From Sodiomyces alkalinus F11 (Eukaryota > Ascomycota > Sordariomycetes > Glomerellales > Plectosphaerellaceae): 64,000 bases of DNA. The stretch is taken from positions 4,831,255-4,895,254 of the forward strand of contig NW_021167080.1 of the NCBI RefSeq assembly GCF_003711515.1, given 5' to 3'. Positions within the stretch are counted from its first letter, which is position 1, and each line of letters starts with the position of its first letter. A program made the translations under genes and the position numbers. This document shows positions 8,320-44,770 of the stretch, piece by piece. The notes below the pieces were generated by a model. It had not been told where the DNA came from, searched no databases, and saw only the letters and a program-made list of their open reading frames with translations.

Positions 8320-9885
8320 CGCTAAGTAAGTATAAAGCAGAGCCGAGTACCTACACGATTCTAACCCCTAATCCTATAATACTAAGTTCTAAAGCAGGCT
8401 AAAGCGAGAGCTGCGGATAGTATACGATAGGGTAGATAACCTTAATAGAAGTAAGGGTAATAAACTCTCTTTAATACTCGCGAAGTATAATCGCGAGATA
8501 GCGGATCTAAAGGAGGCTTTATGTAATAAGTCACGGGCTCTTAAGGATACGCAGGCTAAGCTTCGCGAAGGTAATATAATATTAAGCAGCTACTATGCGA
8601 TAAGGAGGAGAAACTTAAGGTCTATAAGACCGGTATAGACTAAACCCTTATTAAGCTTAATAAGCTTAAGCAGAACTAGGGCAAGACGGACTATATACTA
8701 GATAGTTAGATCAACGCTATTATTCTCGTTAAACTAGGTAAAATTAACGATATTATTAATTCGGTGCTCTAGATAGGCGTTTAGTGAGTGGATAATGCCC
8801 TTTACGAACTAGACTCCACTATATAAGCGGGTAATTAAAACGCCTCTCCTTCCTACGTTTTATTATAAATCGAAAAGGCGTTATTAAGCGCTATAGAATT
8901 CGTAACAGTATTTAATAACTTTATCGCTAATAGTCCTAATAGCTCGTACGCTAAGCTAATTAAGGCAAGTAATATCTTCGTAGGCGCTATAACGAATATA
9001 TATAGTAATACTAAGGGACTAACTCGACTAGCGATAGATAATAAGAAAAGCGACTCGCTAATAGACGGTATACAGAAGTCGGTACTATTAACGGTGAAGT
9101 TCTTCCGCGGTTTATAAAGCTTTCGACTAAAGGGTATAAACCCGATTTAGAGAATATATATAGTTATTAATAGTAATAATAATATACAGATAAATCTCTC
9201 AAAGCTAAATAAGCTTTTTAAGATATTCGCCTCCGGGGCCGGGAAGTTAATAAGTAAAGGAGACTTAGGCGATATTATAGATAACGAGTTAAATAAGGCT
9301 GCCGATACGATAACGGCGGCGGCGGCGAGGTTAGCTAAGCTAAAGACTAAGCCTCGGGAGGGGTATACGATATACGAACTAAAAGTACACGACTCTATTC
9401 TTAATATAGTAATAGCGGTTATAAACGTAATCGCGTAGCTTATTAAGGCAGCGACGGTAATATAGCAGGGGATTATATAAGCCGGGCGAGGTTCCTCTTC
9501 TCGTATAGTATTCTATATGAAAAATAATCGGTGGATCGAGGGTCTTATCTCGGCGGCGAAGGCGGTGGCTCTATCTACTAATAGGCTAATTAAGACGGCG
9601 GACGGGGTACTATTAAACTGTAATAGCCCGGAGTAGCTAATCGTGGCATTAAATAACGTAGCGGCGTCGATAGCGTAGCTTATAGCGGTAAGCTAAGTTA
9701 TGGCTAGGTTTATAAGTAAAAGCTAGGAGAACCTAGAGTAGGCGAGTAAAGTAGTAGGGACGGTATATAGGGCATTAGTGCGTTAGGTGCAGAATATAAT
9801 TAAGGACTATAACTAAGAGGGAAAGTAAGTGGATTACCTCCAACTAGGAGCGTACGAGTTCAAAGTACGCGAGATAGAGTAATAG
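8320..9885 (+). pseudogene. SLA2: RIP-eroded SLA2 (C-terminal half), MAT-flanking gene
   Basis: SLA2 (End4/Hip1R) links clathrin coats to actin, and in Sordariomycetes it is the standard gene on one side of the mating-type locus. The relic covers the end of the coiled coil (YNREIADLKEAL at about 8476, NKSRALKDTQAKLREG), a middle part (NASPSYVLL, FNNFIANSPNSS) and most of the I/LWEQ actin-binding domain (GDIIDNELNKAADTI, KVHDSIL, GRGSSSR, NNRWIEGLISAAKAVA, YEFKVREIE). Most breaks are RIP-type Gln stops, with at least one indel near 8590. The ANTH half is absent upstream, and the reading ends abruptly after REIE plus two former Gln codons, before the normal C-terminus. Its 3' end points toward MAT1-1-1. 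Confidence 0.9.
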
Positions 9886-10978
9886 GTAAGGAAGATACCT
9901 AAACACCCCTATCGACTACGGTATACCGGGGGACGGATATTGTTTGTCCTTGTGTCCTTGGGACACACCGTATATAAGAATGTTAGGGGCTAATAAAATT
10001 AGAACTCTTTTTTTTTTTTTTTATAGGTCAAAATATTACAGCTGGAGAACTCACCTACGGCCGCATAACACCGACTAGGTAAGATACGTAAGATCTCGTA
10101 TCAAAAGGAGTAGGCTAAAGTCGGTAGGCAGGAGGCCTAGAAGATAAGGCTACGGATAAATTAGGCTTGATCACACGGCAGCCCCGTATTCCATAGCGGC
10201 CGTAAATACGAATAAGGGAAAGAGAAGGGGGGACAAGGAGAGGAAAGAGGGGGAATAGATTCATACCGCGTTAGGACGCAGTTTAAAATTACATGGCTAC
10301 TACTACACTACTACCCTTTCCTATTCAGCACATCACCAACCTAGATTCTGTTTTAGTACCACCAAGGCCACTTTCGCGTATAGAAGAGTCAAGCGCCAGT
10401 TCGGAATTCGCAATATTTTCCCTAGGTATAACTAGCGCCCGGTATACGATACGCTAGGCGTTAGGGGTCCGTAAAGCCAGCGGAAGAGCGGAAATAGCGG
10501 AATAACACAAGACTACAAGGCTACACCGACGGGGGCTTTCTTAAAGTAAACGGTTCGACGTTAAGATAGGTTTATATTACTGTGGGGGTCGAATAGCGGT
10601 TTAGGGTAGTTTTATAAGGAGTCCACGGAGTACTCTAAGCCTCTTAAGTCGGTTAATAATACTAGCGACTAGCGACCCTGTACTCCGGTTAATTCTTTTT
10701 AAAGAGGATAAGACGACTATATACGGGCGATTATAGCGTTGTGTTACGGGACGAGGCCTGGCTGAACGGGAGAGCAGTGGATTATAGAAGGGCAAGTAAT
10801 AAGGGAGGCGCGTCGTCTCGGAGACTTATGGACAGACAGGCTTGAGAAAAAGACTAGGGACTTCCTATATACCTTTATAGCAGCCATACTTAGAGTTATA
10901 ATTATAATTATAATCTAGGAGCTAATTACGGCCAGGGGGAAATTCTTTAATCTATAATATCTACTACTGCCTCCTTAC
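9886..10978. other. eroded DNA between SLA2 relic and inverted repeat
   Basis: No frame resembling a known protein was found. A T-run at 10009-10022 is the only simple feature. A short open frame on the minus strand at 10601-10795 is rich in Arg/Leu and looks like chance. Confidence 0.4.
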
Positions 10979-13672
10979 CTTTTATTATAAGCCTCACGAT
11001 ATTTAGAGCTAGCCGCCCTCCCTCTCTAGAGATTTAATTCAACTATTAAAGCTCTGATTTAATGCCTATCGCGATATAGTAAAATAGACGGTTTATCCAT
11101 ACCGATTAAGTATATAAAAGAGGATCTCGAGGCAGGACTAGCTCGATTAAGAATCACGGCCTCTTTATATGTAAGCTCTCTTATAACGATATATATAATA
11201 ATTACTTTTAGGTATACCGCCACTACGCTTAATAAGGTAGCTTTATAGTCCTATTTAAGACTTAAACCACTAGTTCTGCCGTAGACCACCTACGCAGGAA
11301 GTATAAAATCCTTCTATCTAGTAATACTAGTAAGGGTATATCTAAGAACTAAATCTAACGATCCATAGGAGGTATAATAACCTTTAAAAATTGTACTTAT
11401 CTCCAGGGGTTAATTCTCTAGCTTATAGGAGCTTACTATTAGCTTTATCGTTAACTCTAACTAGCTCTTTTCTGTGTTTAAAGATCTATACCTCTACTAG
11501 ATACTATAAGCATTTACTCCTAGCCTCTTCTAATAACTGCCACTTACGTATAGTATGCTATAAGACTACTAATCTTTATCTATAAAGGTATACCTTTTAT
11601 TATACTAATCCTTACCCTATTTAAGCTAATGTATAGGTATTTATCTAGAGAAACGGATAGTAATATAGTAAAAACTCCTATAATCCTCGAGTAAGATCCA
11701 TCTTAGCTTTAAGTTATGAACGTCCCCTAACCGACACGCGATTCTGGCGATAACTGCCTATTTATTAGGTCCTCGTAATACACTATAGAGTATCCTACTT
11801 ATCCTATACTAGTAATCAGGTACTTATACTAAAGAGAATATTACTTTAAGTCTATATACTATTATATAGAATTAGCGACTAGGTTCTATTATAGGAATAA
11901 GTATATCCGATAGTACCTCTACTAATAACAAGATAATAAAGTCTTTTTTTATTAGGCTTAGTATAGAAGGAAGATATACTGCTACCTATAGAATACTCTG
12001 CTATAGGTATATTTAAACCTTAATAGTAGGGCGTTTCTATATACAGAAGACTCTAAGGTTAAGTAGGTTTAGATATAATTTAATTCTATTAGTAATACCT
12101 TTATTTAAGTTATAAATACTAATCCTTCTAATTATAGGCAGTAATTCTAGTAATTAATTACATCCGACTATCTCCAGGGCAATCTTTAATACTAGTAGTG
12201 GAAAGGGCCTATTAGTAAGTTTCGTAATATCGTTAAATTTATTAGAAGCTCGCTATAATATAGCTATAGCTTTAAAGCCCTAGTAGGTAGGATTAAAGCT
12301 AAAGATCAGGCCTTTTTATGATATTATTTCTACGAGCCGTTAACTATAAAGCTCGAGCTTACTTTAAATAACGAGACTAGGTAGAATTCTACCTACCTAA
12401 TACTGGATTTTACTTTAAAAAAATAAGAATAGATTAGGATCTTCCTCCTTAAGAGTTAAGCCTCCCCTAATATATCTTAATAAATACTATAAAATAATAT
12501 TCTTACCTTTAAAGATTAGAAGCTATTAGCCGAGCTTTATAAAGTCTCAAAGCGGCTATATAACTAGAAGATAAGATACTAGGGCTAGAGAATAGATAAA
12601 GGCTATAGACGCTTTAAGGAGGTCTTTATTAGAATAAAGTATCTTCTTAATCACTTTAAAGGCTAGAAGACTCTTTTTAATAATATAACTAACGATATTA
12701 TTAAAGACACAGCTTTATAATTCTTTTATAACGAACCTTCCTGACCTCTTTAACGTCTATAACGCTAGCGCCGCCCTATATTAATATTTCTCGAAAGCTA
12801 AGCCTCTTCTTAAGCCTCCTCTTAAGCCTCGCGAGCCTCCTAATCCTCTAAATTAATATTAATCTATATAAGTTATGAACGAAGTGGCTATAAGAGCTTA
12901 GTAATTAATTTAAAGGTATATTTCTGACTCTCTATACTTAATACCTAGTAAAAACTAAACGATTATTATATAAAGCCAGAAGAATACCCCTATTATACTT
13001 TAGCTATAATTCTATTTACTAGGCTTAGTTTTACTTATTTAGAATAGCGCTAGATTATTAAGTACTAATTATCCTAGCTTTATAATACTAAAAAAGGCCT
13101 TATTAAATATTAAGATACGTAGTATCGCTACTAATAACCTAATAATTAAGACTAAAGTAGTAATAGTAGCTAAGGCGTCTTTACTAGCTTTAAAGCGTTA
13201 GTAAGGGTAGAGGATAGCTATTATACGTAGTGGATTTACGCTAGCTCTTAAACACCTATAGTTAATAGGGGGTTTACGGTTAAGAGATATCTACACCTAG
13301 ATATATAAGGCGTTAGGGATCTAATTAAGTAATAGTACGAGTAGTAGTAAGCCTTTCTGACGCTTAATAAGCTAGCGATTAATATCTTTAGAATACTAGC
13401 GATAGTAGTAGACTATAAGAGGGTATTTAGCTCAGCGAAGCTAACTTTAATAAGCTAGTAGCAGAGGATATCGCTAGTAACACTTAAAGCTATTTAGACC
13501 CTTAAAAGCTGGCTATAGCAGGATCTAGTCTCTATTAGATTAAGGGTAGGGGTAGTAATAGGCGTGTGGAGATAGTATAGATAAGTTATCTATATCTAGG
13601 AATAGCCTTACTTCTAGGTAATTACTAACGTGGCTTATACCTAGGTATATTAATTCAATCAATTAGTTACTA
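10979..13672 (+). repeat. left arm of 2.7-kb inverted repeat (hAT copy)
   Basis: This arm is the reverse complement of 16793-19486. Paired positions keep a constant sum (30465) from one end to the other: base 13672 pairs with 16793, and the open frame at 11391-11585 pairs with 18880-19074. So there is no net insertion or deletion over about 2.69 kb. All stretches I compared directly were identical, including eroded stop-rich ones. Beyond 10979 the two copies drift: first a 1-base indel in the AAGGTAA region, then clear divergence. Beyond 13672 similarity stops abruptly. Confidence 0.9.
11000..13560 (+). pseudogene. RIP-eroded hAT-family transposase (left copy)
   Basis: hAT transposases move DNA transposons by cut and paste. 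In one + frame the 3' third reads as the conserved hAT C-terminal dimerisation region: a helix like LNKLAINIFRILAIVVDYKR, then VFSSAKLTLIS near 13414-13450, then TLKAI and TLKSWL near 13473-13510. Upstream are ILNTQ and NDYYIKPEEYPYYTLAIIL near 12930-13010, matching the region before the dimerisation domain. An N-terminal stretch near 11260-11310 resembles the end of a BED-type zinc finger (SAVDHLRRKYKI). Stops fit RIP of Gln and Trp codons. It is non-autonomous now. The alternative (another DDE family) is less likely because of the VFSSAK motif. Confidence 0.7.
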
Positions 13673-16600
13673 CTCAGTCAGCTTTACATCGGTGATAGAG
13701 TCGAAAGGGGATGCTTAGGGAAAGGTACGACTTCTCATCCCCCAATGATAAAGGCGGGGAGACGAGGAGTGTTTACAAAGGGAGATGAAATGTTTGGACA
13801 GGGGTATTCTGTCAACGTGGTTTGGGCAAGGGTTGCAAGGGTTGAGCGATGTTCTCCACACTCGACTGTGCAAGTTGAGGTGTACTTCGTACTTTGTAGC
13901 TCCGAAATCCGTACTCCGTAGTTCAAGGCCGAAACAGCGAATGTTTACTTATGTAGGTGGTGATTTAGAGCGGCCAGCGATTTCTTTCAGTGGTTTTTTT
14001 CTCTCTCTCCCCCCCCTTCCCCTGTTTTTTATATATTTTTATTTCACCTTTTTTTTTTTTTTGGTTCTGATGTTTCTTTCCCTACACCCCTTGCCACCAC
14101 CTCTCAAATCTTGCATGCAATGAGAAAGGACAAAGAACATGGGGGGGTAGTCGTCGATACCCCGCTCTTTAAGTGTTGGAGTGTTGGTAGAAGAGGAAAT
14201 CAATACCATTGGTTCTCGATGACGGTGACACTTGACACTTGAGCGATAGAAGAGAACGTGAAAAGAAGAGAAGAGAAGAGGGTGTCGAGACAGACCAGGG
14301 CCACCCTAAGGTAGACAAACATTTAGGACGGATCAGGAAGAAGGACGTCTAAAATTGGTTAGGATATTCCTGTATTATCCCTGTAGTATGGGGGCCGAGG
14401 CGACAAGGATTCAGGTCTGAAATTTGGCTGATCTGGGAGGAGAATCAGGAGATAGGGGGCTAGGACAACCTGTCACCTGTGGCTGCACAACTTCGCCACA
14501 GATAGCAGCGTACAGAAACGCAACATGTCATTATGATACCCCGGCCTATTTGAGGGGCCTCACATTCATTGGTTGGGACCGTTGGGGGGCCGCATAGTTT
14601 CACGGTTCACCGACCTCTAGCGAGGAGAGCTTTCAGTCTTTGAGCTCGAGTCCGTTACTCAAGTTGTCAATTTCGACAAAGCATCTGCAGAAGATCTTGC
14701 AAGTAGCCCTGCTGCATCGTTGTTTTCGCTTATGTTCGTGGACAATCTTCCCGAAGCTGAACTCTCAGGGGCGCCTGAGGCAGTGATGGTTAATGTTATC
14801 CCAAATTCAAGACGGTGTTCCAGTACCACGTGTCTATTCCGCAGGCCTAGCGACGGTACTCAAAGAGCAGTAGAAGAGTGAGTTGAGTTTAAAGAAGGGG
14901 GAGGGAATGAAAGAGAGCATCACACGCTATGCTCTGCGTTCACACACCATCTTTCTTCTCCTTCCTTCAAATCTATAAGAGACATCCCCCCACTTCTTCT
15001 TTTTTTTTTTTTTAGAATGAAAGTGCCGATGGAAAGTCGAAGAGACAACGTATATTGTACATAATTCGGGGTTGCACAGAGGGCGCAAGCCGTAGCAAAC
15101 CGACTTCTGAACAGAGAAAAGCGCATGGGGGTTGCTTCTAGGCTGCACCATATTGACGAAGAGCCGGGGCCCGGGACAGAGTTGGCTGACACCTAGCTGA
15201 CATGGAGTCATGGACGAAAGATTGATGGGAATACCTCCTTATTTCGAAGAACTGAACAGTATGCCGGCATGACTGATTTGTCTCCCGGTTCAACGGCGCT
15301 CCCAAGTTCCAACGCCCACGGGCCACGGTCTACCCCAGACCCTGGCAGTGGGCACCCCTCATGGCCTCATCCCAGGGCGTTAATGCCAAAATGGAATAAT
15401 ATCCGATTTTCGCTTCGTTCCAGTGCCAAGAACTAAGCTGTTAGCTGCAGGTGGCCGGAGAAGTGATATCCTCCGACTGTCCGAGACCCGAAGAAAGCTT
15501 CCCTAAAAGCCAGTCGTTATCATAGCAGTCGTGGGTTATTATCGGGAGCTTTCCCATTCGTCTCAGGCCGAGATGGGCGAGTAGGTAATTATTAACGGGT
15601 GTTGGATGTCTTGGAACCGATTTTCGGAATAGATCCAGGCCCAGCTTCTTTGGTCTCGGGAGTTATAACTTTGTGCTTTGGTCAAACAAGTTCTTTTCTT
15701 GTTAATTTTTGTTTCTTCACGCCCGATTGTCTCTTTCTTGTAGGCGGTAGTTCGAAGTTTTATCGTCGGTCTTCCACTGAGTCGACTCCTTGACTTTCGT
15801 TTCGCTTTTATCCTGAGTGGGGGGGAGTTTCTTCCCGATCACCACGAGAGAGCCTATCGCCTAGGGTCCGTACTTGGCAGTCTAGGCCCGTGACCCGTCG
15901 GGAGACCCGCCTTGACATTTAGACTTCTGAATCTGACCCCTTGTTAGCCCCTTGTAGGCTTGTACTAGGCATAGGTCTCCTTCTTGGCCTTTTAGCCCTT
16001 AGGGGCGTTGAGATAGCAGGCTAACTGGCGTCGCCCCCCTACCTCAGACATGGCGATGGCGACTACCAGGTTACAGACAGACTGAGGCGCCGGACTACAG
16101 TCCTGGACGAATACGATGTAGTCTCTTCTCGCGTGACTTGGCCGTAGAAGGGATAGTGGCGGTAGCGCCCTTTGTTTGCTCTTCGGCGACCCTCGGGGAT
16201 TTAGCGTCTTGGCAAGATAATCGCATGGGCGCAGTGCACGCTGCATGCGTATAATGGTAAATACATACGGTATGCAATTACAACGTGTGCACATCTCTAG
16301 GAATTAGTCCTTGCAGATTTCGGCCGGCATTGAAGGACACTCACCGCCGTTAATGTGTCGCTACTGTCACCCCTAGTTTCTAAAGGCCAAGGGCCTACGC
16401 AAGCGTCTTGGGACGCCCACTATGGCACTATGCCGCTGTCAATTTCCAACGGCTTAGTACAGGCTTTCCGGTTCAGATAAGTTGGTAGCCATGGCCCATA
16501 GGGGCCGGGTCGTCGGGAAAAACCAACCGATCGCCGAGACGCTTGTGTAAGGTATGCACTATTCGCCTTGGAATTGCCTAGTTTCCGCATCTTAAAGCCC

Positions 16601-16792: not shown

Positions 16793-19486
16793 TAGTAACT
16801 AATTGATTGAATTAATATACCTAGGTATAAGCCACGTTAGTAATTACCTAGAAGTAAGGCTATTCCTAGATATAGATAACTTATCTATACTATCTCCACA
16901 CGCCTATTACTACCCCTACCCTTAATCTAATAGAGACTAGATCCTGCTATAGCCAGCTTTTAAGGGTCTAAATAGCTTTAAGTGTTACTAGCGATATCCT
17001 CTGCTACTAGCTTATTAAAGTTAGCTTCGCTGAGCTAAATACCCTCTTATAGTCTACTACTATCGCTAGTATTCTAAAGATATTAATCGCTAGCTTATTA
17101 AGCGTCAGAAAGGCTTACTACTACTCGTACTATTACTTAATTAGATCCCTAACGCCTTATATATCTAGGTGTAGATATCTCTTAACCGTAAACCCCCTAT
17201 TAACTATAGGTGTTTAAGAGCTAGCGTAAATCCACTACGTATAATAGCTATCCTCTACCCTTACTAACGCTTTAAAGCTAGTAAAGACGCCTTAGCTACT
17301 ATTACTACTTTAGTCTTAATTATTAGGTTATTAGTAGCGATACTACGTATCTTAATATTTAATAAGGCCTTTTTTAGTATTATAAAGCTAGGATAATTAG
17401 TACTTAATAATCTAGCGCTATTCTAAATAAGTAAAACTAAGCCTAGTAAATAGAATTATAGCTAAAGTATAATAGGGGTATTCTTCTGGCTTTATATAAT
17501 AATCGTTTAGTTTTTACTAGGTATTAAGTATAGAGAGTCAGAAATATACCTTTAAATTAATTACTAAGCTCTTATAGCCACTTCGTTCATAACTTATATA
17601 GATTAATATTAATTTAGAGGATTAGGAGGCTCGCGAGGCTTAAGAGGAGGCTTAAGAAGAGGCTTAGCTTTCGAGAAATATTAATATAGGGCGGCGCTAG
17701 CGTTATAGACGTTAAAGAGGTCAGGAAGGTTCGTTATAAAAGAATTATAAAGCTGTGTCTTTAATAATATCGTTAGTTATATTATTAAAAAGAGTCTTCT
17801 AGCCTTTAAAGTGATTAAGAAGATACTTTATTCTAATAAAGACCTCCTTAAAGCGTCTATAGCCTTTATCTATTCTCTAGCCCTAGTATCTTATCTTCTA
17901 GTTATATAGCCGCTTTGAGACTTTATAAAGCTCGGCTAATAGCTTCTAATCTTTAAAGGTAAGAATATTATTTTATAGTATTTATTAAGATATATTAGGG
18001 GAGGCTTAACTCTTAAGGAGGAAGATCCTAATCTATTCTTATTTTTTTAAAGTAAAATCCAGTATTAGGTAGGTAGAATTCTACCTAGTCTCGTTATTTA
18101 AAGTAAGCTCGAGCTTTATAGTTAACGGCTCGTAGAAATAATATCATAAAAAGGCCTGATCTTTAGCTTTAATCCTACCTACTAGGGCTTTAAAGCTATA
18201 GCTATATTATAGCGAGCTTCTAATAAATTTAACGATATTACGAAACTTACTAATAGGCCCTTTCCACTACTAGTATTAAAGATTGCCCTGGAGATAGTCG
18301 GATGTAATTAATTACTAGAATTACTGCCTATAATTAGAAGGATTAGTATTTATAACTTAAATAAAGGTATTACTAATAGAATTAAATTATATCTAAACCT
18401 ACTTAACCTTAGAGTCTTCTGTATATAGAAACGCCCTACTATTAAGGTTTAAATATACCTATAGCAGAGTATTCTATAGGTAGCAGTATATCTTCCTTCT
18501 ATACTAAGCCTAATAAAAAAAGACTTTATTATCTTGTTATTAGTAGAGGTACTATCGGATATACTTATTCCTATAATAGAACCTAGTCGCTAATTCTATA
18601 TAATAGTATATAGACTTAAAGTAATATTCTCTTTAGTATAAGTACCTGATTACTAGTATAGGATAAGTAGGATACTCTATAGTGTATTACGAGGACCTAA
18701 TAAATAGGCAGTTATCGCCAGAATCGCGTGTCGGTTAGGGGACGTTCATAACTTAAAGCTAAGATGGATCTTACTCGAGGATTATAGGAGTTTTTACTAT
18801 ATTACTATCCGTTTCTCTAGATAAATACCTATACATTAGCTTAAATAGGGTAAGGATTAGTATAATAAAAGGTATACCTTTATAGATAAAGATTAGTAGT
18901 CTTATAGCATACTATACGTAAGTGGCAGTTATTAGAAGAGGCTAGGAGTAAATGCTTATAGTATCTAGTAGAGGTATAGATCTTTAAACACAGAAAAGAG
19001 CTAGTTAGAGTTAACGATAAAGCTAATAGTAAGCTCCTATAAGCTAGAGAATTAACCCCTGGAGATAAGTACAATTTTTAAAGGTTATTATACCTCCTAT
19101 GGATCGTTAGATTTAGTTCTTAGATATACCCTTACTAGTATTACTAGATAGAAGGATTTTATACTTCCTGCGTAGGTGGTCTACGGCAGAACTAGTGGTT
19201 TAAGTCTTAAATAGGACTATAAAGCTACCTTATTAAGCGTAGTGGCGGTATACCTAAAAGTAATTATTATATATATCGTTATAAGAGAGCTTACATATAA
19301 AGAGGCCGTGATTCTTAATCGAGCTAGTCCTGCCTCGAGATCCTCTTTTATATACTTAATCGGTATGGATAAACCGTCTATTTTACTATATCGCGATAGG
19401 CATTAAATCAGAGCTTTAATAGTTGAATTAAATCTCTAGAGAGGGAGGGCGGCTAGCTCTAAATATCGTGAGGCTTATAATAAAAG
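16793..19486 (-). repeat. right arm of 2.7-kb inverted repeat (hAT copy)
   Basis: Reverse-complement partner of 10979-13672. Its outer end at about 19486 is followed by sequence still loosely similar to the left copy for about 130 bp but with an insertion (19520-19560) and many differences. The inner border at 16793 is abrupt. The identical eroded state of the two arms means the copies were made, or were homogenised, after most of the RIP damage. Confidence 0.9.
16905..19465 (-). pseudogene. RIP-eroded hAT-family transposase (right copy)
   Basis: Mirror copy of the left transposase relic. The VFSSAK-like dimerisation motif falls near 17015-17050 and the TLKSWL-like helix near 16955-16992 on the minus strand. 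It carries the same stops at the same codons as the left copy wherever I compared them. No intact transposase is encoded. Confidence 0.7.
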
Positions 19487-19671
19487 GTAAAGGAGGCAGT
19501 TGTAGATACTATGGATTAAAGATGGTAGAGGATACTATAAATACTATAGATTACCGAATTATTTCCTAGCTATAATTAGGCCCTCGATTATGATTATAAT
19601 CATAACTATAGGTATAGCTACTAAAAAGGCATATACGGAGTAGAATAGAAATATGTTCCTAATAATATGCG

Positions 19672-22830: not shown

Positions 22831-22897
22831 AAGTGAGCGATCACTACTAACGAATTGGACAGACTTAACTACTTCGTAGCTCCGGATCTCGGGTTAT
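22831..22897 (+). repeat. short inverted repeat near MAT1-1-1, left arm
   Basis: Nearly the reverse complement of 23481-23547 over about 67 bp, with a handful of mismatches. Both contain AACGAATTGGACAGAC and CTACTTCGTAGCTCCGGATC on the matching strand. The pair encloses about 580 bp. It may be the terminal repeats of a small non-autonomous element, or an element and an opposite-facing copy. Confidence 0.85.
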
Positions 22898-33239: not shown

Positions 33240-34300
33240 CCTAATCCTCCTACGGCTACGCGTGGCCGCGGCCGCTGTCGCCGTTAACGGGAGGACAGGT
33301 CTACTCTCGGCTAGTACTATATATCCTATAGACTTTACCGCCCGATTAACGCTTTTACTACGCGCTATAACGGTGCTCCGTATAATACCTATAACGACTA
33401 CTCAAATAGCCGAAATAGCAGGACCCGTACTAAAGGGGCTATTACTGCCAGCTAGCGTAGGGCGCGTCTATAGCCTAAGGTGCGTATAGGCCTATTAGGG
33501 TAGTATTTTCCGGGTAATACGGTTAAATACTACGACCAAGAGTTAATACGCGTAGAGTATAAATATCATAGCGCGTAGCACTGGCTTACAGAGAGATTAT
33601 AGGTAAGTTCCCCCTTATACCCGTTATAGACTATTAGTTAACCGCTATTTTTTCTTCTTAGTATTTAATAACTACGAACCCGAGATTTAGCACCTATTAT
33701 AACTAGGGTAACGTTAATATTTCCGTTATTCCCCCCCTTCTCGATCTCTTTAAATACCTATTATACGCCGATATGGCTTAGGCCGCGGATTATCGTAAAA
33801 GGACCCGTTAGTATAACAATACCTTTTCCTTTACTTTAGTATAATATACCTATTACCTCGAATTAGCGTAATACTGCTTTATTATCGGATTCTGCGTTCT
33901 AGGATAACGGTATAAATATTTCTACGCCTTTATCGCCGTCTCTTGGAGACACGATCAGAAGTAATATAGGATCGATAAAGAGTAACGCAAATGCTATAAC
34001 AAGGGGTCTATTTACTCGGCGGGAAACTATAGGCGACTTATAGTCTAGCGGATAGTCTAATAGCGATTCGAGCTATAAGCGGACTACGCTCCCCGCTATA
34101 ACGAGTATAGCGATATAGGCGCGATAATAGGGCTAGAATGCACTATAGTGATAGAAAGAAGGGCGAATCGGCTTATTCGGCGAGTCGTCGCTATTACCCC
34201 CCTTAGACTTAAGTAAGCCTATAGGCTAGGGCTAACCGCTCCCTCCGCCAGGAACGCCGCTTCCTAAGCCGGATAAGAACTCGAAGGTTACTATAATCCC
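33240..34300 (+). pseudogene. RIP-eroded Helitron-like N-terminal region
   Basis: Helitrons are rolling-circle transposons. The + strand first gives an Arg/Asn-rich low-complexity stretch (33250-33480). Then comes a reading like EYKYHSAxHWLTERL (33558-33603) that resembles the C-x-x-C-x-A-x-H-W-x-x-E motif before the Helitron-like N domain. After an intron-like GTAAGT...TTAG gap (33604-33660) it continues with NPRFSTYYN, GNVNISVIPPLLDLFKYLL, DYRKRTR and YNNTFSFT. This order matches the family's N-terminal domain. No helicase motifs follow within the readable part, so it is a fragment. Confidence 0.5.
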
Positions 34301-35385
34301 TGTACCACCTAAGCGTAAACCCGTACCGCCGTCGCCGCCGTAGGCTCCGGAAAGGTTACACGAAACGTAGCTCTCTAAAGAAAACAGGAGCGGGGACGCG
34401 AAAATAGAACGCTAACCACTACAGACACCTCCGTTACTAGCGCGGAGACTAAGAGATAGGGGTGGGAATAAGAGGGGTAACGGCAACGACGTGCTTATTA
34501 TCGCTGCACCGGTTAGGTCCGAGCCGTCGATACCGATAGAAGAGGAGATCTTAAGGGGCTACGAGGAGTCGGGTTACGGGTAGTAGCCGTGGGCCGAGGA
34601 CCGAATAGGCGCCGATCCGAGTAGTCTTAATTCTTCTCTTACCCGCCGTCTTATGTTTCTAGAAGGAAACGAAGCGACTAGTTTAGGAGAGTCGGTGCGG
34701 TTAGATAAGAATAGTCCGGGACTAGATAAGGAGGAGAATAGTTCTATAGAGGCGCGGCCGGCTTAGGGGGTTTAGTAAGCCGATAATAAGGAGGACTTTT
34801 CGGGATAGTTTACTAACGGTAAGTTAAAGAAAGAAGAGGAGAAGAAGTAGGAGGAGTAGGGGAGTTAGATAGTGGAAGTTAAGCGTTAAGGCCGGACGGA
34901 AACTACTATAATAGAGCAGCACTACAGTGGGTCGATTCACTTAAGGCAAAGGGTCGCTTAAGCTAGGACGGGTCCCTATATTTGGGAATATAATATATCG
35001 GAGCGGTAATAAGATAAAATAAGTATATTCGGGTGGCTGGCCATTATACTAGGCGAACTAAGAGAAAGACCTAACCCGCTAATTCTTAGAAACTTAAAGG
35101 GGGGGAATATAGTATCTAACTCTTATCAGGTATAGCGGTATAGGGTAAAGCGGTGTTCTAAATATATATATAGAACCTAGGGAAGATAAAGACGGTATAA
35201 ATATATATAAGATAACTAATACCGTATAAATGCCGCTCTAAAGGTCTATGTATAAGAAGAGCAGAGATATATAGACAGATAAATATTATAAAATTTTATT
35301 AATTTTTAGAATTAGTGAATTTATGATTATTCTTTTTTTTAGTTTCTTCTTTATCCCTTTCCAGCCTATTTATTTATACTTTTAT
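34301..35385. other. eroded DNA between Helitron and GH43 relics
   Basis: GC-richer at first (34200-34900) but stop-dense in all frames, then strongly TA-rich (34980-35380). No coding relic was recognised. An acidic/basic low-complexity run lies at 34810-34870. Confidence 0.4.
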
Positions 35386-36394
35386 TTATTCGGGCTTCTT
35401 AGTAATAGTCTTACCGTCCTTATTATAGAAGATCTCCTTTACTTTAACGGAACGTAGATAATCTATACCGCGGCTAAGCTTATAATCGTGGTGCAATAAC
35501 TACTAACGGCCCTAGAACTTAACGATAAAGTAGTAAGTAGTCTAGCTAAGGATAGACTCTAGGATATAGCCACCGTAGGTAAAGGGGCCGAGGGGGTTAT
35601 CGCTAGTAGCGTAGTAGAGGTAGTGGGTATCGCTAGTAGAGTAGGAGAAGTAGTAGGTACTATTATGTTTATTGACCTAGGCGGCCTCGAAGAAGCGGCG
35701 GTCGTGGTTATTAGCGAGGAAAGGCTTCTAGGTATCCGGGTTAAGGATCTAGACCTTCTAGACCTTAGCGGTGAACTCCTTTATATTATCGGTGAGCTTA
35801 GCGGCACGGGGCCCTATAGCGTAGACGCCCTCGCCCGAGGGCTTTTTAGGGCCGGACTACTCCGGGTTAAAGAGGTTATTACCCTTCTAGTTGTATTATA
35901 GCTAGCCGCCCTAAAGGCCGCCAAAGTAAAGGTAAGCCTAGCTATTATCGTTAATATAACTAGCCGGGTTAATAGAGTAGAAGCCTTTAATAGGTTCGGG
36001 CTTAGCCTTAAAAGGGCTATAGGGGCGGTCACTAACGGCGACGCTAATACGGAAGATACCCTACTTATCGCGGGCGGGGAAGATGAGGTAGTACTTACTA
36101 TCCTTAAAGGCGATGTCGGGAGCCTAAAGCTACTTAAAGACCTAGGGGACGTCCTTAGTCTTAAGGATAACGCCGTGGTTAGTTAGGGTCTCTACGGGGT
36201 CTAGGGAGGAGGTTCTAAAGACGTGGTAGTCGGCTATATTATACTAATCGCTATTATCGTTAAACTTAATATCGGTCTTACGGTTATAAGACGGGTAGAT
36301 ATAGACCTTACCCTCGAAGACGTAAGCCGAAGGGTCGGTAGTGTAGATATTTATAATTAGGGGAGATATCTTAGGCGGTAGTTTTACTGGATAT
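35386..36394 (-). pseudogene. RIP-eroded full-length GH43 glycosidase
   Basis: GH43 enzymes cleave arabinofuranose or xylose from arabinoxylan. The minus strand gives an almost complete family member of about 335 codons. It begins at ATA (former ATG, 36394) with SSKTTA, then NIYTTDPSAYVFEGKVYIYP with the catalytic Asp, FNDNSD, NIADYHVFRTSSL, APDIAFKDSKYYLIFPARD, FRISVAVSDRPYSPF, AYLYFGGL, GPRAAKLTDNIKEF, RRFFEAA, KHNSTYYFSYSTSDTHY, SDNPLGPFTYGGYILE, LRSVKVKEIFYNKDGKT, and a natural stop at 35386. Damage is Trp/Gln stops and missense changes (W to stop, H to Y) plus one indel near 36360. No signal peptide. A paralogue must exist or have existed, because RIP needs a duplicate. Confidence 0.85.
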
Positions 36395-38059
36395 TAGAGG
36401 GCGTGAAGAGAAGAAAGGATAAAAGGGGTATTATTAAGGGATAAAGGTGAGAAGGAATAGGACGTATAAGTATGGGAGAGAAGTAGGTAGATAGGTAAGA
36501 AGGATAGACGAAGGGAGGTGTGGATAGAGGAGGCGGGGTGTTAGGAGAACTAGAATGGGTATAGTACCTAAGGTAAGGTATAGGTAGATAACCCCCCCCC
36601 CCCCCTTTCGTTACCCTGCTAAGTGGGATACGGGGGAGGGGTTATTATTATAGGGATATTTATTAAAGCTGAATAGATATCTATCTTTTTTTTTTTCCCT
36701 TAAATCACTAGTCAGTCTTACTAAATTACAACTATATTATAGTAACTAATAAGCTATTCGTATCCGTATTAATAGGATTTTATCGTTACTTCCTGCCTTT
36801 TAGCCTCCACGGCGCCGTATATTAATAATATTATCCGTATGTTTCGGAGTAATAACTGCAGGTCCTATAAGACACGGTGATGGTCTGGGAGGGCAAGTCG
36901 GAAGTGGGAATAGGTAAAATCGGGAATGGGAAAGGGAAAAAAAAATGGGGGAAGATTGAGTCCACTCAGAGTTCTTCCTATTTATCCAGTGCATTTTCCC
37001 GGCTATCTACCCTACTAAGGATCCCCACGGTGCCACTCCGTCTTTCGCCTGATATGCGCTCGTGCTTCGTGTTGTCTCTTATTGTCACTTCTGCCCCGCG
37101 ATCCCCAGAAATATCTGAAACCCATTTCGGTATGTATATTATATATTGTACGTATATAATGATCTGATATCGCGCTGCTGCGTGATGATACCCCGGTTAT
37201 ACGTTGTGGTTCTCCGCCTTGGCAAAGCGATGTCTTTAGTGTCGTAGTGGTTGTTATAGGAGTTCTGACGACGTAAAGATAGAGGAGTTGATCTGCGTGT
37301 AATTAACCGGGACCTTTAGCCCCAAGAATACCCGTCGAAAGTCGAGCTATATCAGGTGGTGGTTTGGATAACGGCGTGCCAGAGGTTGAGCTGAGTTTGT
37401 GGTTGATCGGTCCGGGGTCCGGGTTGAAAAGACACCCCGGAAAAGGCAAATAGGAATAAACTATTATACATTTAATCGTTATTGAGTTGATACTTTTTTA
37501 TGTAATTAAGCAGCTTACTGTTCGGGAGTTGTGACGTCCCAGGACTGTGTATCCTAATAAATAACATGAAATAATAATAAGCCTTCCTAAACCCAGCCAG
37601 ACTACTAAAGGTACGACTCCCGTCTGGAATATGACATGGTTATATAATCACGCCTAGATACCCACAACAAGCCAGCCGTTGAACATGAAGCTGTCAATAG
37701 CCACAGTAATAGTACCTCGTAGGCATATGTCGCGATCCTGCCAAATCCAACCTGGAATTACAGGGTCAGGTCCGGTTTAAACAACCCGTGGACATAGGCT
37801 CGCTTACCACATCAAAACTACCTAGAGCTTGTCTTCTTCCAGAGCACCACCTCTACCTTATAATAGACTTCTCTCTCTATATCAACACCCTACGCGTCTT
37901 CGCCACCCCACTCCCTTTCTTTTAGTACCACGATACACGCATTTATCCACCTCCTTCAATACTAACACGCCTGAATTAATATAGGCCAACATCCTCTTCT
38001 TTCCTACTTTTACTAAGGTACCTATAACCTTCGTTACCTCCCGTTTCAACACCTTTCCC
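36395..38059. other. spacer between GH43 and APC5 relics
   Basis: Eroded sequence with a 14-base C-run at 36592-36605, then a less mutated interval (36860-37560) without recognisable genes. From about 37700 it should include the former upstream region of APC5. Nothing else is supported. Confidence 0.45.
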
Positions 38060-40663
38060 ATAAATATAGGTCGCTTCTTGACTCCAGCTAAGATTAGCCT
38101 ACTCGCCCTTATAGAGCTTTATATGGATAAACTTATGCCTAATTCTGCTATAATTCCCGTTCTCTGCTTTATTACCTTAAATCTCCTTAATCGCGAACCT
38201 ATAGTCCTGGCACCTAGTTACTCCTCCTCTCCCTAATCCCGGTGGACTAACGCCGAGCGGAGGGTTAGTCTAGTAACACTTATATATAATTTTAAATCTC
38301 TTTTTACCGTTTACCTAATCGTTATCGGCTTACCGGGGAGGAAGCTATAAGATATCTTCCTAGAAAAGCTCTAGGATATTAACTCTTTCTATCAGCTCTA
38401 TAATTTCTTCGATCACTAATCTTACACGCTTATTATACCCGGCGAATAGCTACGCCGCTTAGGTCTTACCGAAGCTAAACTATAAGGTATCCGTATCTCC
38501 CGTAACTCCCCCTTTAGCACTTTTATTAGATATTACTAGCTTAAGTTTAGCCACCTGCGCTTTAAGGACTCCGTTAAGCTCTAGAAGGACTTTATCAGCT
38601 ACCGATAGCCTACTTTCGGCCACTATCGGCGAAGGAGCCCTTTTATAGACCGTATAAGCTTTAATTACGTCCTCGACGTAGGTAAATAGAGCGATTGGAA
38701 TATCGAAGCAGTTAACGTCCTCGCTTTTATTACCTACGGTTACGGCCACTCTCCTACTAGTAACTCTTCTCTTCCTCTAGTCTGCCTATTAGTACCGACG
38801 ATATAGAATTCCTACTTAAATTTTAAATCGATAAAATACAGAGTACGTTTTCTTCACCTATACCTAGTCCTTCCTACGCCTCTTATCTTATAGTTACTAC
38901 TATTACTCTCCCGGCTAATAATTCTCTGCCCCTAAGTATATAGAAATCGAGTTTCTCTTAACGTCCTAGTTCGTTTTTAGCGTCTCCTTTAAGATAGTCG
39001 AGTAATTCCAACCTTAAATCACTACCTAAGGTCCGCACCGCCTTTCTTTCCTAACCTATATATATCTATATATATATTTTTACTTTCTTTTTGTTTCTTT
39101 TTTCCTATCCCTTCTATTGCCCTTTACCGTCCTTCCGTTTTTATCCGGCTGACCGTTAGTAGCTTCCTCGATATATAGAAATTAGGCGACTATCCTACTA
39201 TCCTCGATTATCTTTATCGCTACTTTAACTATACTATATAGAGCCGTGAGCGTTTTTACTATTAGTATACGCTTCTAAACTTAGCTATTATCTAAGCCGG
39301 CTTTAGCTTTTATAAGGATATGTTAAAGACTATATTAGAGACCGTGTCCACCGCCCGTAAGAACTAGGATATACCGTGTCTTAACTTCGCTCTTAACTAG
39401 CTATTCTAATTCGGCCGGGGATATCCCCGACTAACCTAGGACCTTAAGTCCGATAGTCTTCTCGGCTCCGGAAAGGAGAGCTTTGCCTACCTCCGCGCTA
39501 AGACTAAGGAGACTAGTATATAGCCGCTATAAAACTCCGTCTTACTTAGTAAGGCTAGACTAGGCTTTTATAACGGAGAAAGCGTAGCCAGTGGCGTGGA
39601 AATACTAGTCTGTAGTTCCTAACTTATCGTTATATATAACCTGAAAAATCTATATAGCGCTTAGTTAACTATAGCTATAGCCTTATAGGAACGTCTTAGC
39701 CTCGCCTATCTATCTACCATAAAGAGCGAGATATTCCTCTGTTATTATATTAGATACGCTACTTTTAATAATTAGCTAAAGGTTACCGTCCGTGTCGCTA
39801 TACACCTTACCGAGATAGGTAAGTACGACTAAGCTCTAAAAATATTAGAGGCCCTTAACGAGAACGCCCTTCGCTTATAGAAGGCTAGTTAGTATTAGTA
39901 TAAATACTAGGGTATTATTAAGTTAAACCGTGACCTGCGCCACGATAACCTTACTACTGCCGAATAGCAAATTTCTTAGCTTCTCCAGTTAAAGCAGGAC
40001 GATATAGAGCCTAACGTGGCTTTTATTATTAATTCCCTATATATCGACTATCTTACGCGCCGCGGAGATCTTTAAGCCGCTTTTAGTAAGGTAGAAGATA
40101 TACTAGATGTCTTTAACGACGGGAAATAAGATATTACCCTATATATACACCTTATGCTTCTTAAGGTATAATTATTCGATAAGGCCGGCCGTCCGTAAAG
40201 AGGCTTTACCCTAGTAATACGGCTCGTAAGCACGGCCTAGCGGGCCCGCCTTATCCCTACCCTCTAGTAGGCGTCTAGTACCCTCTTTAATATCTTTTTA
40301 TCCCTTAGCGAATTTAATATAGCCGCTTAGCTTCTAACAGCCGTCCTCCCAGGTAGCCTAGAGTATAAATCGGCTACTATAAACGGATAGCTCTATTTAT
40401 ATCTTACCGATACGAATATAGGACTCGCCGGGAAAGCACCGCTTAACTCGGCGCGGCGAATAGAGTATCTAATAAGGGCCGTGAGTACTGTCGAAAAAGC
40501 CTTCGATTCTTATTCTATTATCGAGGACACTAAGAAGTAATGCGAGATAATAGCGAAGAAGGCCACTATTATAAAGGTTATAGGGGATAAGGCGCTGGCT
40601 GCGGATTATACGGCCGCTTATATCTCTCTGCGGGAAAGTGCCGTCGCGCTCGCTATATATTAA
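38060..40663 (+). pseudogene. APC5: RIP-eroded APC5 (anaphase-promoting complex subunit 5)
   Basis: APC5 is a TPR scaffold subunit of the APC/C ubiquitin ligase. In many Sordariomycetes it lies beyond COX13 and APN2 at the mating-type locus. The start is ATA at 38060 (former ATG), followed by NIGRFLTPAKISLLALIELY. Later matches are SRWTNAERRVSLVTLIYNF, GLPGRKL and, near 39167, KLGDYPTILDYLYRYFNYTI, LETVSTARKN, CLNFALN, SLLGSGKESFAYLRAKTKET and SKARLGFYNG. The C-terminus reads GDKALAADYTAAYISLRES and reaches a stop at 40663. Dozens of stops fit RIP of Gln/Trp. It spans the normal gene length, with at least one frame change (likely old introns). As the gene is essential, an intact copy should be elsewhere. 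Confidence 0.88.
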
Positions 40664-41344: not shown

Positions 41345-42053
41345 AAGGAGGATACGTATAAAATAGTCTATATATTATATTAGCCTATGCCGCGTAACGA
41401 TATTAATTAAGATTTGCTTACTTTATCACTATCGCCCTAGGCGAAGTTCGTAGTGCGGATATTCTAGTAAGGGTACTTCGTACGCTCCTCTAGAGGAGGG
41501 AGGTACGACTAATACTCCTAATACTACTCGTTCTAGAGCCGGTAAGCGTTCTAGCTGGCTATAGAGACGGCGGGAATATAGGCGCTATTTTATTGGCCGT
41601 TTATTGGTTAGCTAGATTAATTTTCTATTACTCCACTTGTATCTAGTCGCTTCCCTCTCCCCCGAATACAATTAAACCCTAAAGAAATAAACGATACTTG
41701 ATAGGGCTTATAGAATAACGCTATCTTTTTTAGATAATCGGATACTAGAGGAAATCCCTTAGAGTAGCGGGACTAGAAGGAAAGGGGGAGCCGTACTAGA
41801 CCGAGATCTTACGCCAGAGCTCTAGGTTGATTATTAGCACCGAGAAATACAGCAATATCGAGAGGGACGTCGGGGAGGAGAAAGAAAAAAAAAGGAAGAA
41901 ACACTAACTAGTGGTACTGGTGGTATACTCCTTAGTATACTAGCGCTTGCAGATAAAGGTATTTTCGGTGCTGGCCAGGCGGCGCTAAGCCGTAGCTTAT
42001 AGCTAGGCGATATAGCGCGGGGTAGCGCGGACAAGCTATCGCTAGAGGACTAT
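41345..42053 (-). pseudogene. COX13: RIP-eroded COX13 (cytochrome c oxidase subunit VIa)
   Basis: COX13 is a small nuclear-encoded subunit of mitochondrial complex IV and a classic neighbour of APN2 at Sordariomycete MAT loci. On the minus strand the start is ATA (42053, former ATG), followed by a presequence-like part and RRLASTENTFICKR (near 41970-41930). After an intron-like break the membrane part reads IPAVSIAS, NAYRL. The most diagnostic stretch is SYLPPLEERTKYPY, NIRTTNFA, GDSDK (about 41515-41435), typical of the C-terminus of this subunit, with Trp and Gln replaced by stops. A donor-like GTAAGC follows GDSDK; the last exon is not clearly readable, so the 3' end is approximate. Confidence 0.85.
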
Positions 42054-42676
42054 TTTATCTTTTTTTCGTTATCGTCGATGTCCGGGGAGGTTGTTAATTG
42101 AGGGTTGTGATTCGGTGTGTCGTGAGGCAGCTAGTTAAGATCAGGTCATAATAAGCTCGGCTATGGGAACGTCACTCTGCCTTGCAATTAAGGCAGCCAT
42201 TTTCCGGGACGTCTCCGTGGGCTTAGGTTTTATAAGAGGATTACGTGATAAATCCGGCTTACTACCTAGTGCGGATTCAGAGAATAGAGAAAAGCCCTGA
42301 ACGATATATTATATGACCTCGCGGCAAAGGTTCGCGTTGCCAACGTCTTGTTTTATAGAGCGACAACGTCGCGTTATATTTAACATCGTTTTTTATACAG
42401 TCGATATTAAAATCTCTAGCGTATATTAATAGCTTGAGTTGCCTAGGAGGAACTTATATTAGAAAGCTCTATTTAGGGAAAGAGCTCCATATACAGTCCA
42501 AGAAGCTGCTAGTGCTAACGGCGGCGCCTATGCATCGCTATACTCTATACACCCTCTCCGCCGCCTTAGGAGTAGGCGTTGAAGGAATGTGAGGCATAGC
42601 TAGCAGATAATATATATCCTAATATATATTCTTGCGTCAGAACCAAGAGTTACTTATCTAAGCTAGGTTTTCAAAG
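42054..42676. promoter_or_regulatory. former divergent promoter between COX13 and APN2
   Basis: The two relics start 623 bp apart and run outward, the usual head-to-head arrangement of COX13 and APN2. The interval is only moderately eroded and shows no open frame. Any regulatory function is presumably lost with the genes. Confidence 0.55.
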
Positions 42677-44770
42677 ATATCTCTACGAATTATGACCTGG
42701 AACGGTGAGTCTTCTGCTACGACGGTTATAAACTGTTCATATAGGAGTTTAGTTACTAACGTTAATTTAAGTTAACGGTATACGGTTAGTCACTTTAAAG
42801 GAGTATGCTTCTTAATATCCGGCTGATTTGGCTTAGAAACCCGTTCGGGTACTAGCTATAGATGGAGAAACGGATATTTTAGGTCTATAGACCCGACCCC
42901 GCCTTCCCTTACTAGCGTTCTGCGTCTGACACATTCGCAGGGAATATTCGATGTCTTAGAGGCCGATATTATTATTATGCAGGAGACTAAGATCTAGCGG
43001 AAAGACCTTAGAGATAATATAGTCCTTATCTCTAGCTAGGATATATTCTTTAGTCTCCTAAAATATAAAAGGGGTGAGTTATTATTTCCCGTCCTACCCT
43101 AAATACTAGATTATAGGCGGTATCTAAAACCCTCGGAAAGGTTACTCGGGAGTTATTATCTATACGCGAACTCTAAAGTGCTGCCTTATCCGGGCGGAAG
43201 AAGGAATCACGGGTATTCTCTGCCCTCCTAACTCGTCGGTAAAGTACTGTGATCTCCCCGATACCTAGTAGATCGGGGGCTACCTATAACCTGGCTAGCT
43301 TTAGATAAAATTAATAAGGCTTTTCTTAATTCCGAGGGTCGCTACGTAATCCTTAAGTTCTCCGCGTTTATCTTAATTAGAACGTATAGTCCTACGAACC
43401 GTGATACGTCCCATAATGCTTTCCGGATCGGTTTTCTTAATACCCTGGATATTAGGGTCCGAAATCTAATCGCTACTGGAAAGTAAGTTATCTTAACCGG
43501 TGATCTAAATATTATACTTTCCGAAATAGATACGTTAAATATTGCTAAGGATCTCCGGAAAGAAGGGCTAACGGTTAATAATTAGATGGCTATGCCGGTA
43601 CGATATCTTTTTAATTAGCTTATTTTTAAGAGATCCGTTATCGGAGAGCGCGAGGAGGGATAGGAGGAACCTATTCTTTAGGACCTATACCAGTGGTTTT
43701 ATCCACGCTGCTAGGGTATATTTACTTATTAGGATACGAAGAAGAATACCCGTCCGGCTAATAACGGTAGCCGTATCGACTATATACTATGCTTAGCAGG
43801 TATTAAAGAGTTATTTATCGACGCTAATATTTAGAAAGGGTTACACGGGTCGGATTACTGCCTAGTCTATACTATATTAGGAGATATAGTTAAGGTTAGT
43901 AACGGGGAGGCTTATCTCCTCGATTTAATATACCCTTAGGGGATATTTCGAGAAGGAAGGAGACTAAGAGAATAGTTATAAAGGGATCTCCTCCCCCTAT
44001 CTACAAAACTTATAACCGAGTTTAACCGGCGACGTAGTATTCAAGATATATTTATAAAACAACCGTCTACTACGTCGTCGACCCCGAAAACACTTAAACC
44101 GGCCAACTCCACCGATGGTTCGACGGATTTCGGAATAAAGAGAACAAGAGACGCACTCGAGACTCTAGATATACGGATATAAGAAACTATACTCTTAATA
44201 ACGCTAGAAGAGCTCCTAACTATAAATAGTTCTCTCTTATCTTAAAGTATAGTTATAACTAAAAGGCCCGAGATAAAGTCCTTATTAAAGAGGCCTATAG
44301 AACTACTATCCTAGCCTAAAAGAACGTTTAAAAGGACTAAAACGAATAAGAGCGAGCTAAGTATTAAAAGAAATAGAGGTAGTTCCGCCTAAAGCACTTT
44401 AAAAGGCTTCTTTAAGCCGAAATAAACTAATATCGTTTTATGCACGGTAACCGTGCCGTCTAAGACAAGTATATTAGAGTCACTCTTAATACTAACGAAT
44501 ATATCCCTAATAGGAAGCAGGTATTCCTAAATTAATACAAGCGATACACCTAAGACCTCGACGGACGCGATATATAGTTTATCGAGTAAGCAGGAAATCT
44601 TATCGTCGACGTAGCTATCGAACTCCGCGATTAAATCCGCCGAGAAGGTATTCGACCCTATTTAAGCGAAGGAGTCCTAGTTAAGACCTTAGCTAGGGAA
44701 GAGGATACCGCCGAAATGCGAATATAGCGAGCCTTGTATTAGCCTTACAACTAAGAAGCCTGGTGTTAAC
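42677..44770 (+). pseudogene. APN2: RIP-eroded APN2 (AP endonuclease/DNA lyase 2), 3' truncated
   Basis: Apn2 repairs abasic DNA sites; its gene usually borders the MAT idiomorph. The start is ATA (42677, former ATG), then SLRIMTWN and a splice donor (GGTGAGT). Further exons give LRNPFGY, MEKR, IFDVLEADIIIMQETKI (Mg-binding Glu, about 42983), RKDLRDNIVL, FPAF-like and TYSP stretches, ILTGDLNIILSEIDTLNIAK, TKKNTRPANNGSRIDYILC and GSDYCLVYT. In the last motif the catalytic His of S-D-H has become Tyr, as C-to-T would do. Then RRRSIQDIF, LKGFFKPK and the start of the GRF zinc finger (KCEYSEPCISLTTKKPGV). The reading stops at about 44770 before the rest of the finger, so the last 30-40 codons are missing. 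Confidence 0.92.

Follow-up and report, generated by a model that had tools for sequence, protein, structure and literature searches.

The 64,000-nucleotide stretch of the soda-lake fungus Sodiomyces alkalinus F11 described here (hereafter the window; C2:4831255-4895254, C2 being contig NW_021167080.1 of a 43.4-Mb genome in 22 contigs) carries an intact mating-type gene, MAT1-1-1, inside the worn copy of a mating-type (MAT) locus, which we refer to as the ghost. The intact resident MAT locus, with MAT1-2-1, lies about 1.3 Mb away within the same contig of 6,539,281 bases. Both MAT genes are intact, the duplicated parts of the ghost have been altered by repeat-induced point mutation (RIP) while the non-duplicated parts were spared, and RIP is confined to one of the two loci. 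We consider it likely (probability about 0.78) that a segmental duplication of the MAT region was pruned by RIP, leaving a stable genome that carries both mating types and is most likely self-fertile. The two-locus reading takes the assembly to represent one haploid nucleus. Positions without a contig prefix refer to the window, negative ones lying to its left.

In Sordariomycetes the MAT gene is usually surrounded by APN2, COX13 and APC5 on one side and SLA2 on the other. The first-pass annotation of this DNA had recognized eroded copies of these four genes beside MAT1-1-1, and had predicted from them an intact second MAT region. Family searches across the whole genome for the I/LWEQ domain of SLA2, for APC5 and for COX13 (COX6A) gave one broken and one intact place per gene; the APN2 relic was located with the intact APN2 frame and falls in the alignment block that also holds APC5 and COX13. 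Counted per domain or main alignment, the relics of the four genes have between 7 and 31 stops; for instance, the I/LWEQ domain of SLA2 (9514-9891, plus strand, 110.6 bits) contains 10 stops and the ANAPC5 domain of APC5 (39161-39418, plus strand, 73.9 bits) contains 7. The motifs on which the annotation relied are indeed present, with PPLEERTKYPY of COX13 at 41467-41499 (minus strand) and MQETK and SRIDYIL of APN2 at 42977 and 43769 (plus strand); at these sites the intact genes read PPLEERTEYPY, MQETKI and SRIDYIL. The predicted intact region was found at C2:6.12-6.15 Mb, where APN2 is accompanied by SLA2 (I/LWEQ at C2:6146654-6147031, a third search row being the next exon of the same intact gene), APC5 (C2:6123765-6124028) and COX13 (C2:6126021-6126179). 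APC5 and SLA2 are essential genes.

Gene order at the resident locus (C2:6.10-6.17 Mb) is POL3, a Num1-like gene, a TEX2-like gene, a glycosyl hydrolase 43 (GH43) gene, APC5, COX13, APN2, MAT1-2-1, a gene that we call gene X, an AT-rich block, SLA2, a second AT-rich block, CIA30, an RRM gene and a Tim44-like gene, so that the MAT gene occupies its canonical place between APN2-COX13-APC5 and SLA2. Its identity as MAT1-2-1 follows from a three-exon model of 225 amino acids, in which an intron splits the HMG box. MAT1-1-1 of the ghost (SODALDRAFT_349317; alpha-box E 1e-44) is the only alpha-box gene found in the genome; a sub-threshold match on C8 (19.9 bits against a cut-off of 28.1) lies inside an HMG-box gene. 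Thus, an intact alpha-box gene and an intact MAT HMG gene occur at separate loci of one assembly. The annotation's proposal of an extra MAT locus that arose by duplication and was silenced is supported, with the amendment that the resident locus is MAT1-2 and not a second MAT1-1. The idea that silencing had spared only the mating-type gene holds for MAT1-1-1 but not for a second MAT1-2-1 and a copy of gene X, both killed by RIP, and non-coding flanks were spared as well.

The relics bear a strong RIP signature. In the pooled comparison of relic and resident (42,050 aligned sites of RIP-mutated pieces, excluding the spared segments S' and I' described below, alignments that score less than 150 bits, and short matches to dispersed repeats at -7.6 and 25.2 kb), 62.0% of 5,291 CpA sites had become TpA, whereas C to T change affected 10.3% of 6,189 CpC, 24.2% of 5,892 CpG and 9.5% of 5,337 CpT sites. 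The CpA to TpA value is 63% over 582-6290 and 44% over 6295-8399 in the outer flank on the SLA2 side, 65% over 25674-27925 around the MAT1-2-1 relic, and, in the relic that follows it, 71-73% in the left pieces and 38% over 29457-32440. With 1-kb bins and a lenient cut, 41 of 45 bins in 1-45000 pass as RIP-affected; the four that fail start at 6001, 14001, 21001 and 22001, the last three being the region of I' and MAT1-1-1. As predicted by the annotation, the indices are high on the relics and low on MAT1-1-1, whose bin has TA/AT of 0.40 and (CA+TG)/(AC+GT) of 1.41. At the resident locus, AT-rich blocks excluded, 11 of 55 bins pass the same cut (top TA/AT 1.26). The reverse T to C change is not raised at TpA (4.2%, against 4.6-5.7% elsewhere), and in this comparison the resident copy thus bears no trace of RIP. 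The genome encodes what we take to be a RID methyltransferase, from the motifs PPCQ and EQT in a single 769-amino-acid frame (C7:1570343-1571227), and, presumably, a DIM-2-like protein, also named from its motifs.

Mutation followed duplication closely: stretches with a close copy are mutated, and MAT1-1-1, which has no copy, and S' and I', which are about 70% like the resident flank, are spared. MAT1-1-1 was searched genome-wide and is single, and S' and I' were compared with the resident flank; protein database searches with MAT1-1-1, which require shared 5-residue words, matched nothing except the protein itself. In I', piecewise CpA to TpA values are 3-20% and transversions 5-13%; pooled over S' and I', CpA to TpA is 13.5% of 355 sites, near the other contexts (7.9-10.3%), and transversions amount to 9.5%, against 4.0% in the remaining copy. 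Judged by their alignments, S' and I' look like the MAT1-1 version of the gene X flank, with a divergence over twice that seen in the remaining copy. The resident counterparts, the S and I flanks, directly adjoin each other, and part of S' forms an imperfect palindrome with the RIP-mutated segment next to it (23469..25236). Open frames do not exceed 123 amino acids in I' and none reaches 150 amino acids in S'. Their escape is therefore hard to ascribe to selection on a gene, whereas the want of a close partner accounts for it. Selection as the sole reason for the sparing of MAT1-1-1 is rejected on the same grounds, since non-coding S' and I' were spared too. RIP recognizes copies above an identity of about 80%, and MAT1-1-1 and its flanks escaped most simply through having no close duplicate. 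RIP probably acted in nuclei that had MAT1-2 at the home locus and MAT1-1 sequence only in the copy. A weak shift in 19750-20955 and 23173-23468 (CpA observed/expected 0.68-0.86) is possibly slight leakage of RIP.

These observations suggest the following history. A block around the resident MAT1-2 locus, represented by pieces of about 112 kb, would have been copied to another place in this contig, at a distance of about 1.3 Mb. Besides this block, the copy would have borne a MAT1-1 segment, made up of MAT1-1-1 and old, diverged MAT1-1 flanks, which might have been acquired when the copy underwent ectopic exchange with a MAT1-1 partner, or might have come with a donor locus that was already fused. 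In later sexual cycles, RIP would have destroyed the closely duplicated stretches of the copy (SLA2, APC5, COX13, APN2, TEX2, gene X and the second MAT1-2-1); MAT1-1-1 and its flanks would have gone untouched, since the nucleus held no close match to them. A haploid genome would result in which MAT1-2-1 is intact at home and MAT1-1-1 survives intact within the dead copy. We infer this order of events, the entry of MAT1-1 into the copy, and expression; self-fertility is likely, given both MAT genes. Since identity of about 75% is below the level of RIP recognition, the copies should by now escape it, and RIP probably stabilized the ghost. More tentatively, and at odds that we place below even, RIP itself may have made the stable homothallic genome, erasing the merodiploid duplicates, including the surplus MAT1-2-1, and sparing the unique MAT1-1 idiomorph; the AT-rich island might then restrict MAT1-1-1 expression to the sexual phase. 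If this were true, the pattern of spared and mutated DNA would be a fossil record of the idiomorph that occupied the home locus when self-fertility arose.

The ghost proved to be larger and more rearranged than the limits drawn by the first-pass annotation (8320..44770): it begins at -16816, 16.8 kb outside the window on its left side, and extends at least as far as 45682. Pieces of a source of about 112 kb are represented, with missing stretches; about 43 kb of the source (43,341 positions) can still be aligned. From the left, the relic matches C2 6225.8-6218.8, 6204.4-6202.3, 6172.7-6160.3 and 6148.2-6145.6 kb (SLA2), followed by the MAT1-1 part, then 6133.9-6129.9 kb (gene X and MAT1-2-1) and 6287.1-6282.7 kb, and finally, in the opposite direction, 6118.2-6129.8 kb (TEX2, GH43, APC5, COX13 and APN2) and 6287.06 kb onward. 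The breakpoints at 27912-27925 and 45248-45250 both join 6129.85 with 6287.06 kb, which indicates that the 17-kb segment between 27.9 and 45.25 kb was cleanly inverted. With this inversion undone, the order descends from 6225.8 to 6118.2 kb and, after 1.4 kb without a match, ascends from 6282.7 to 6287.5 kb; the source chromosome looks as if about 164 kb around MAT had been inverted in it. The source edge cuts through the TEX2-like gene, and POL3 and the Num1-like gene, to the left of that edge, have no match in the relic. The counterpart of C2:6148152-6160333 (the 5' end of SLA2, CIA30, the RRM gene and an AT-rich block) is absent from the ghost, the CIA30 and RRM genes having no match anywhere in the relic. 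Both AT-rich blocks flanking SLA2 at the resident locus (C2:6137285-6144712 and C2:6150651-6156210), which carry direct end repeats of about 200 bp resembling long terminal repeats, are without a match in the ghost; they were either inserted after copying or lost from the ghost.

This arrangement also bears on an alternative origin of the copy, namely that the copied locus was already a fused, homothallic MAT1-1/MAT1-2 locus from the inversion-bearing chromosome of another strain. In that case the ghost would be what is left of a different MAT haplotype that a cross had introduced, rather than a duplicate of the resident with a later MAT1-1 insertion. MAT1-1-1 and MAT1-2-1 stand side by side in the relic, and undoing the inversion at 27.9-45.25 kb gives the order expected of the 164-kb inversion around MAT. 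On the other hand, divergence in the MAT1-2 part does not exceed that of the remaining RIP-mutated pieces (transversions of 3.7-4.8%, compared with 2.1-5.9%), the S and I flanks lie next to each other at the resident locus, and a second MAT1-1-1 was not found. The codon positions likewise suggest that most of the divergence arose after function was lost. Across eight relic open reading frames (ORFs), transversions number 77 in 3671, 64 in 3675 and 150 in 3673 sites at positions 1, 2 and 3 (2.1, 1.7 and 4.1%), and outside the relic ORFs they reach 4.5%; GH43 (13, 5 and 6) was kept out of this pool, and the ratios of single genes scatter widely. A ratio of positions 1 and 2 to position 3 near one half is what is expected of an unconstrained relic compared with a constrained resident, so that the relic genes probably ceased to function shortly after the split. 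We regard a fused donor as a serious minority explanation.

Several points weigh against the history that we favor, a duplicate of the resident locus pruned by RIP. RIP was uneven among the duplicated pieces (CpA to TpA 38-73%). As a rule, RIP affects each of the two copies of a duplication, and a resident locus free of its signs is an anomaly; to account for one-sided RIP, outcrossing or strong selection must be added. The original size of the copy is uncertain, because unmatched stretches could have been lost by the relic or acquired by the resident. Frame-breaking indels are few in the relic genes (22 in 12,123 bp), and three of nine ORFs have none. At that rate 2.4 would be expected in MAT1-1-1, with a probability of 0.09 of finding zero, and its intact state taken alone is therefore weak proof of selection. 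Finally, none of the literature searched, as far as seen, states that S. alkalinus is homothallic. This fungus forms cleistothecia and ascospores in the laboratory, the sections drawn on here stating neither the strains used nor selfing and not using the word homothallic for it; 18 strains were known in 2017 (PMC5706713).

The small number of indels is also what lends some credit to the view that MAT1-1-1 is a bystander that has simply not yet decayed, any self-fertility resting on MAT1-2 alone. Its intactness by chance is compatible with the indel rate given above, and Colletotrichum, of the same order Glomerellales, offers a precedent for MAT1-2-only mating. Nevertheless, the gene has a full-length ORF, correct introns and a TpA observed/expected ratio of 0.47 amid relics with up to 31 stops per alignment, and we consider this view unlikely.

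The ghost contains a perfect inverted repeat of 2,698 bp. The arms are already worn by RIP (GC 0.32; 507 TpA against 70 CpA+TpG over 2,759 bases), and elsewhere in the genome they are matched at 67-71% over parts and by two stretches of 60-75 bp at 79-80%. As the arms are identical and yet worn, they were copied or homogenized after RIP, unless the assembly is at fault. A perfect inverted repeat is a classic place for mis-assembly, and two nuclei or haplotypes merged in the assembly might in principle give the picture of two loci. This is very improbable, since both loci lie inside one 6.54-Mb contig, the outer neighbors POL3 and Num1-like are unmatched in the relic, and a difference of about 25%, mostly of RIP type and in one copy, is unlike a haplotype split. 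A RIP-damaged primary MAT locus and a transposon nest with chance motifs are dismissed, by the intact locus elsewhere and by the long alignments to one region, respectively.

Recombination between the arms could flip the 3.1-kb segment that holds I'. MAT1-1-1 lies outside the repeat, so the arms are no mating-type switch, and inversion-type switching was rejected for this reason. In Schizosaccharomyces, mat2 and mat3 are silent mating cassettes in heterochromatin with flanking inverted repeats. Like these, the gene of S. alkalinus lies in AT-rich, probably heterochromatic DNA near long identical inverted repeats; in contrast to them, MAT1-1-1 is single, without a second copy for exchange, and is not in the invertible segment.

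Table 1. Features of the ghost and its surroundings, in window positions.
Feature	Position	Strand	Details
SLA2-side outer flank relic	1..8399	-	about C2:6169.0 to 6160.3 kb descending, small gaps; blastn pieces 74-77% identity
Tim44-like relic	1303-1998	+	17 stops
Unnamed 368-aa ORF relic	3542-2439	-	13 stops
SLA2 relic	8339..10823	+	24 stops in main alignment; CpA to TpA 73%
Inverted repeat, left arm, perfect 2,698 bp	10975..13672	+	AT-rich, RIP-worn, transposon-like; exact match
Segment I', without RIP	13882..16516	+	65-77% like resident C2:6134241-6137257; CpA observed/expected 1.03
Inverted repeat, right arm, perfect 2,698 bp	16793..19490	-	exact match
MAT1-1-1, intact	20956..22390	+	exons 20956-21292, 21355-22248, 22317-22390; 434 aa
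Segment S', without RIP	22472..23172	+	69% like resident C2:6133528-6134235
Gene X and S flank, RIP-mutated copy	23469..25236	-	76% identity; CpA to TpA 67%
436-bp repeat insert	25237..25671		89% repeat; second copy at -7636..-7201
MAT1-2-1 relic, RIP-mutated	26666..27534	+	many stops; tblastn with resident MAT1-2-1 pieces
Relic of C2:6287055-6282684	27912..32440	-	source 110 kb beyond resident 6172.7 kb; dispersed repeat interrupts at about 28976-29456
TEX2-like relic (PH/MMM1 gene)	33852..34886	+	residues 523-872 only; 25 stops; domains from intact gene
Glycosyl hydrolase 43 relic	35569..36556	-	15 stops in main alignment
APC5 relic	37913..40654	+	11 and 31 stops in main alignments of two ORFs
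COX13 relic (part)	41422..41583	-	COX6A 42.7 bits; 7 TAG stops
APN2 relic	42977..44779	+	motifs; main alignment 43128-44779, 23 stops
Relic of C2:6287062-6287496	45250..45682	+	right breakpoint of clean inversion; end of resident stretch compared
Dispersed repeat near right edge of AT-rich block	47120..48420		at least 35 other matches, about 77-83% alike

Gene X (SODALDRAFT_126637, 345 amino acids, C2:6132162-6133254) adjoins MAT1-2-1 at the resident locus. Neither of its two exon frames has a Pfam match, and it shows no meaningful similarity to MAT1-1-1, of which it had been considered a possible fragment. An orthologue in S. alcalophilus JCM 7366 is 74% identical over 345 amino acids, and one protein search returned relatives in two Sodiomyces species and one metagenome protein only; gene X is possibly a genus-specific MAT1-2 gene. 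Its relic (25221-24138) has many stops by tblastn. In the MAT1-2-1 relic the second HMG exon lies at 27424-27534, and the 34-amino-acid first HMG piece by itself gave no tblastn match in the relic. None of the 14 HMG-box matches in the genome falls in the window, so no HMG gene such as MAT1-1-3 was found in the ghost. Identical open frames of another HMG-box gene occur at the end of C16 and at C22:61597-61898, either because the contig ends are redundant or because a recent duplication has not undergone RIP.

The sides of the 436-bp insert map to resident positions 6132147 and 6132151, which are adjacent there. The dispersed repeat of about 480 bp in the ghost (28976-29456) has many genome matches, 82-95% alike, and 32440-33856 is without a resident match. 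The left part of the ghost includes a stretch little affected by RIP, which holds a 412-amino-acid open frame (-9775 to -8540) without a Pfam match. To the right of the ghost, 49000-64000 is ordinary gene-bearing DNA, encoding an Asp/Glu racemase, an amidohydrolase and a GH10 xylanase with CBM1, and a 154-bp direct repeat is present at 50509 and 59342.

RIP and two-place homothallism are each already known. Similar to RIP of the Neurospora type, the changes seen here are C to T on both strands with a strong CpA preference, they affect duplicated DNA only, and a RID-like gene is present; the differences are that one copy was mutated and that the target was the MAT neighborhood and not a transposon. 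Homothallism with MAT1-1 and MAT1-2 at two places is found in Chaetomium globosum, some Neurospora and Aspergillus nidulans. S. alkalinus likewise combines the two kinds of gene, alpha-box and MAT HMG, in one genome at separate loci, but its second place is a RIP-mutated segmental MAT copy that includes the dead gene of the other mating type. In Chromocrea spinulosa, MAT exists in a second version in which, as in the ghost, sequences of MAT1-1 and MAT1-2 are joined, and repeats and misaligned crossovers are invoked for its origin; there, MAT1-2 is placed inside MAT1-1-1 with direct repeats on either side, some nuclei lose it, and the abstract does not mention a RIP relic (PMC5608430). In the literature searched, mostly titles and the openings of abstracts, we found no RIP-mutated MAT copy that holds one dead mating-type gene and the only live gene of the other type, although the genome paper may mention it.

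The route from outcrossing to self-fertility is usually inferred from finished loci, and in S. alkalinus an intermediate seems to be preserved. The RIP scars of a segmental copy show which of its parts had a twin in the same nucleus. This suggests that a genome defense directed against duplications can nonetheless let a duplication bring both mating types together, and even clean it up, because the two idiomorphs are unlike each other.

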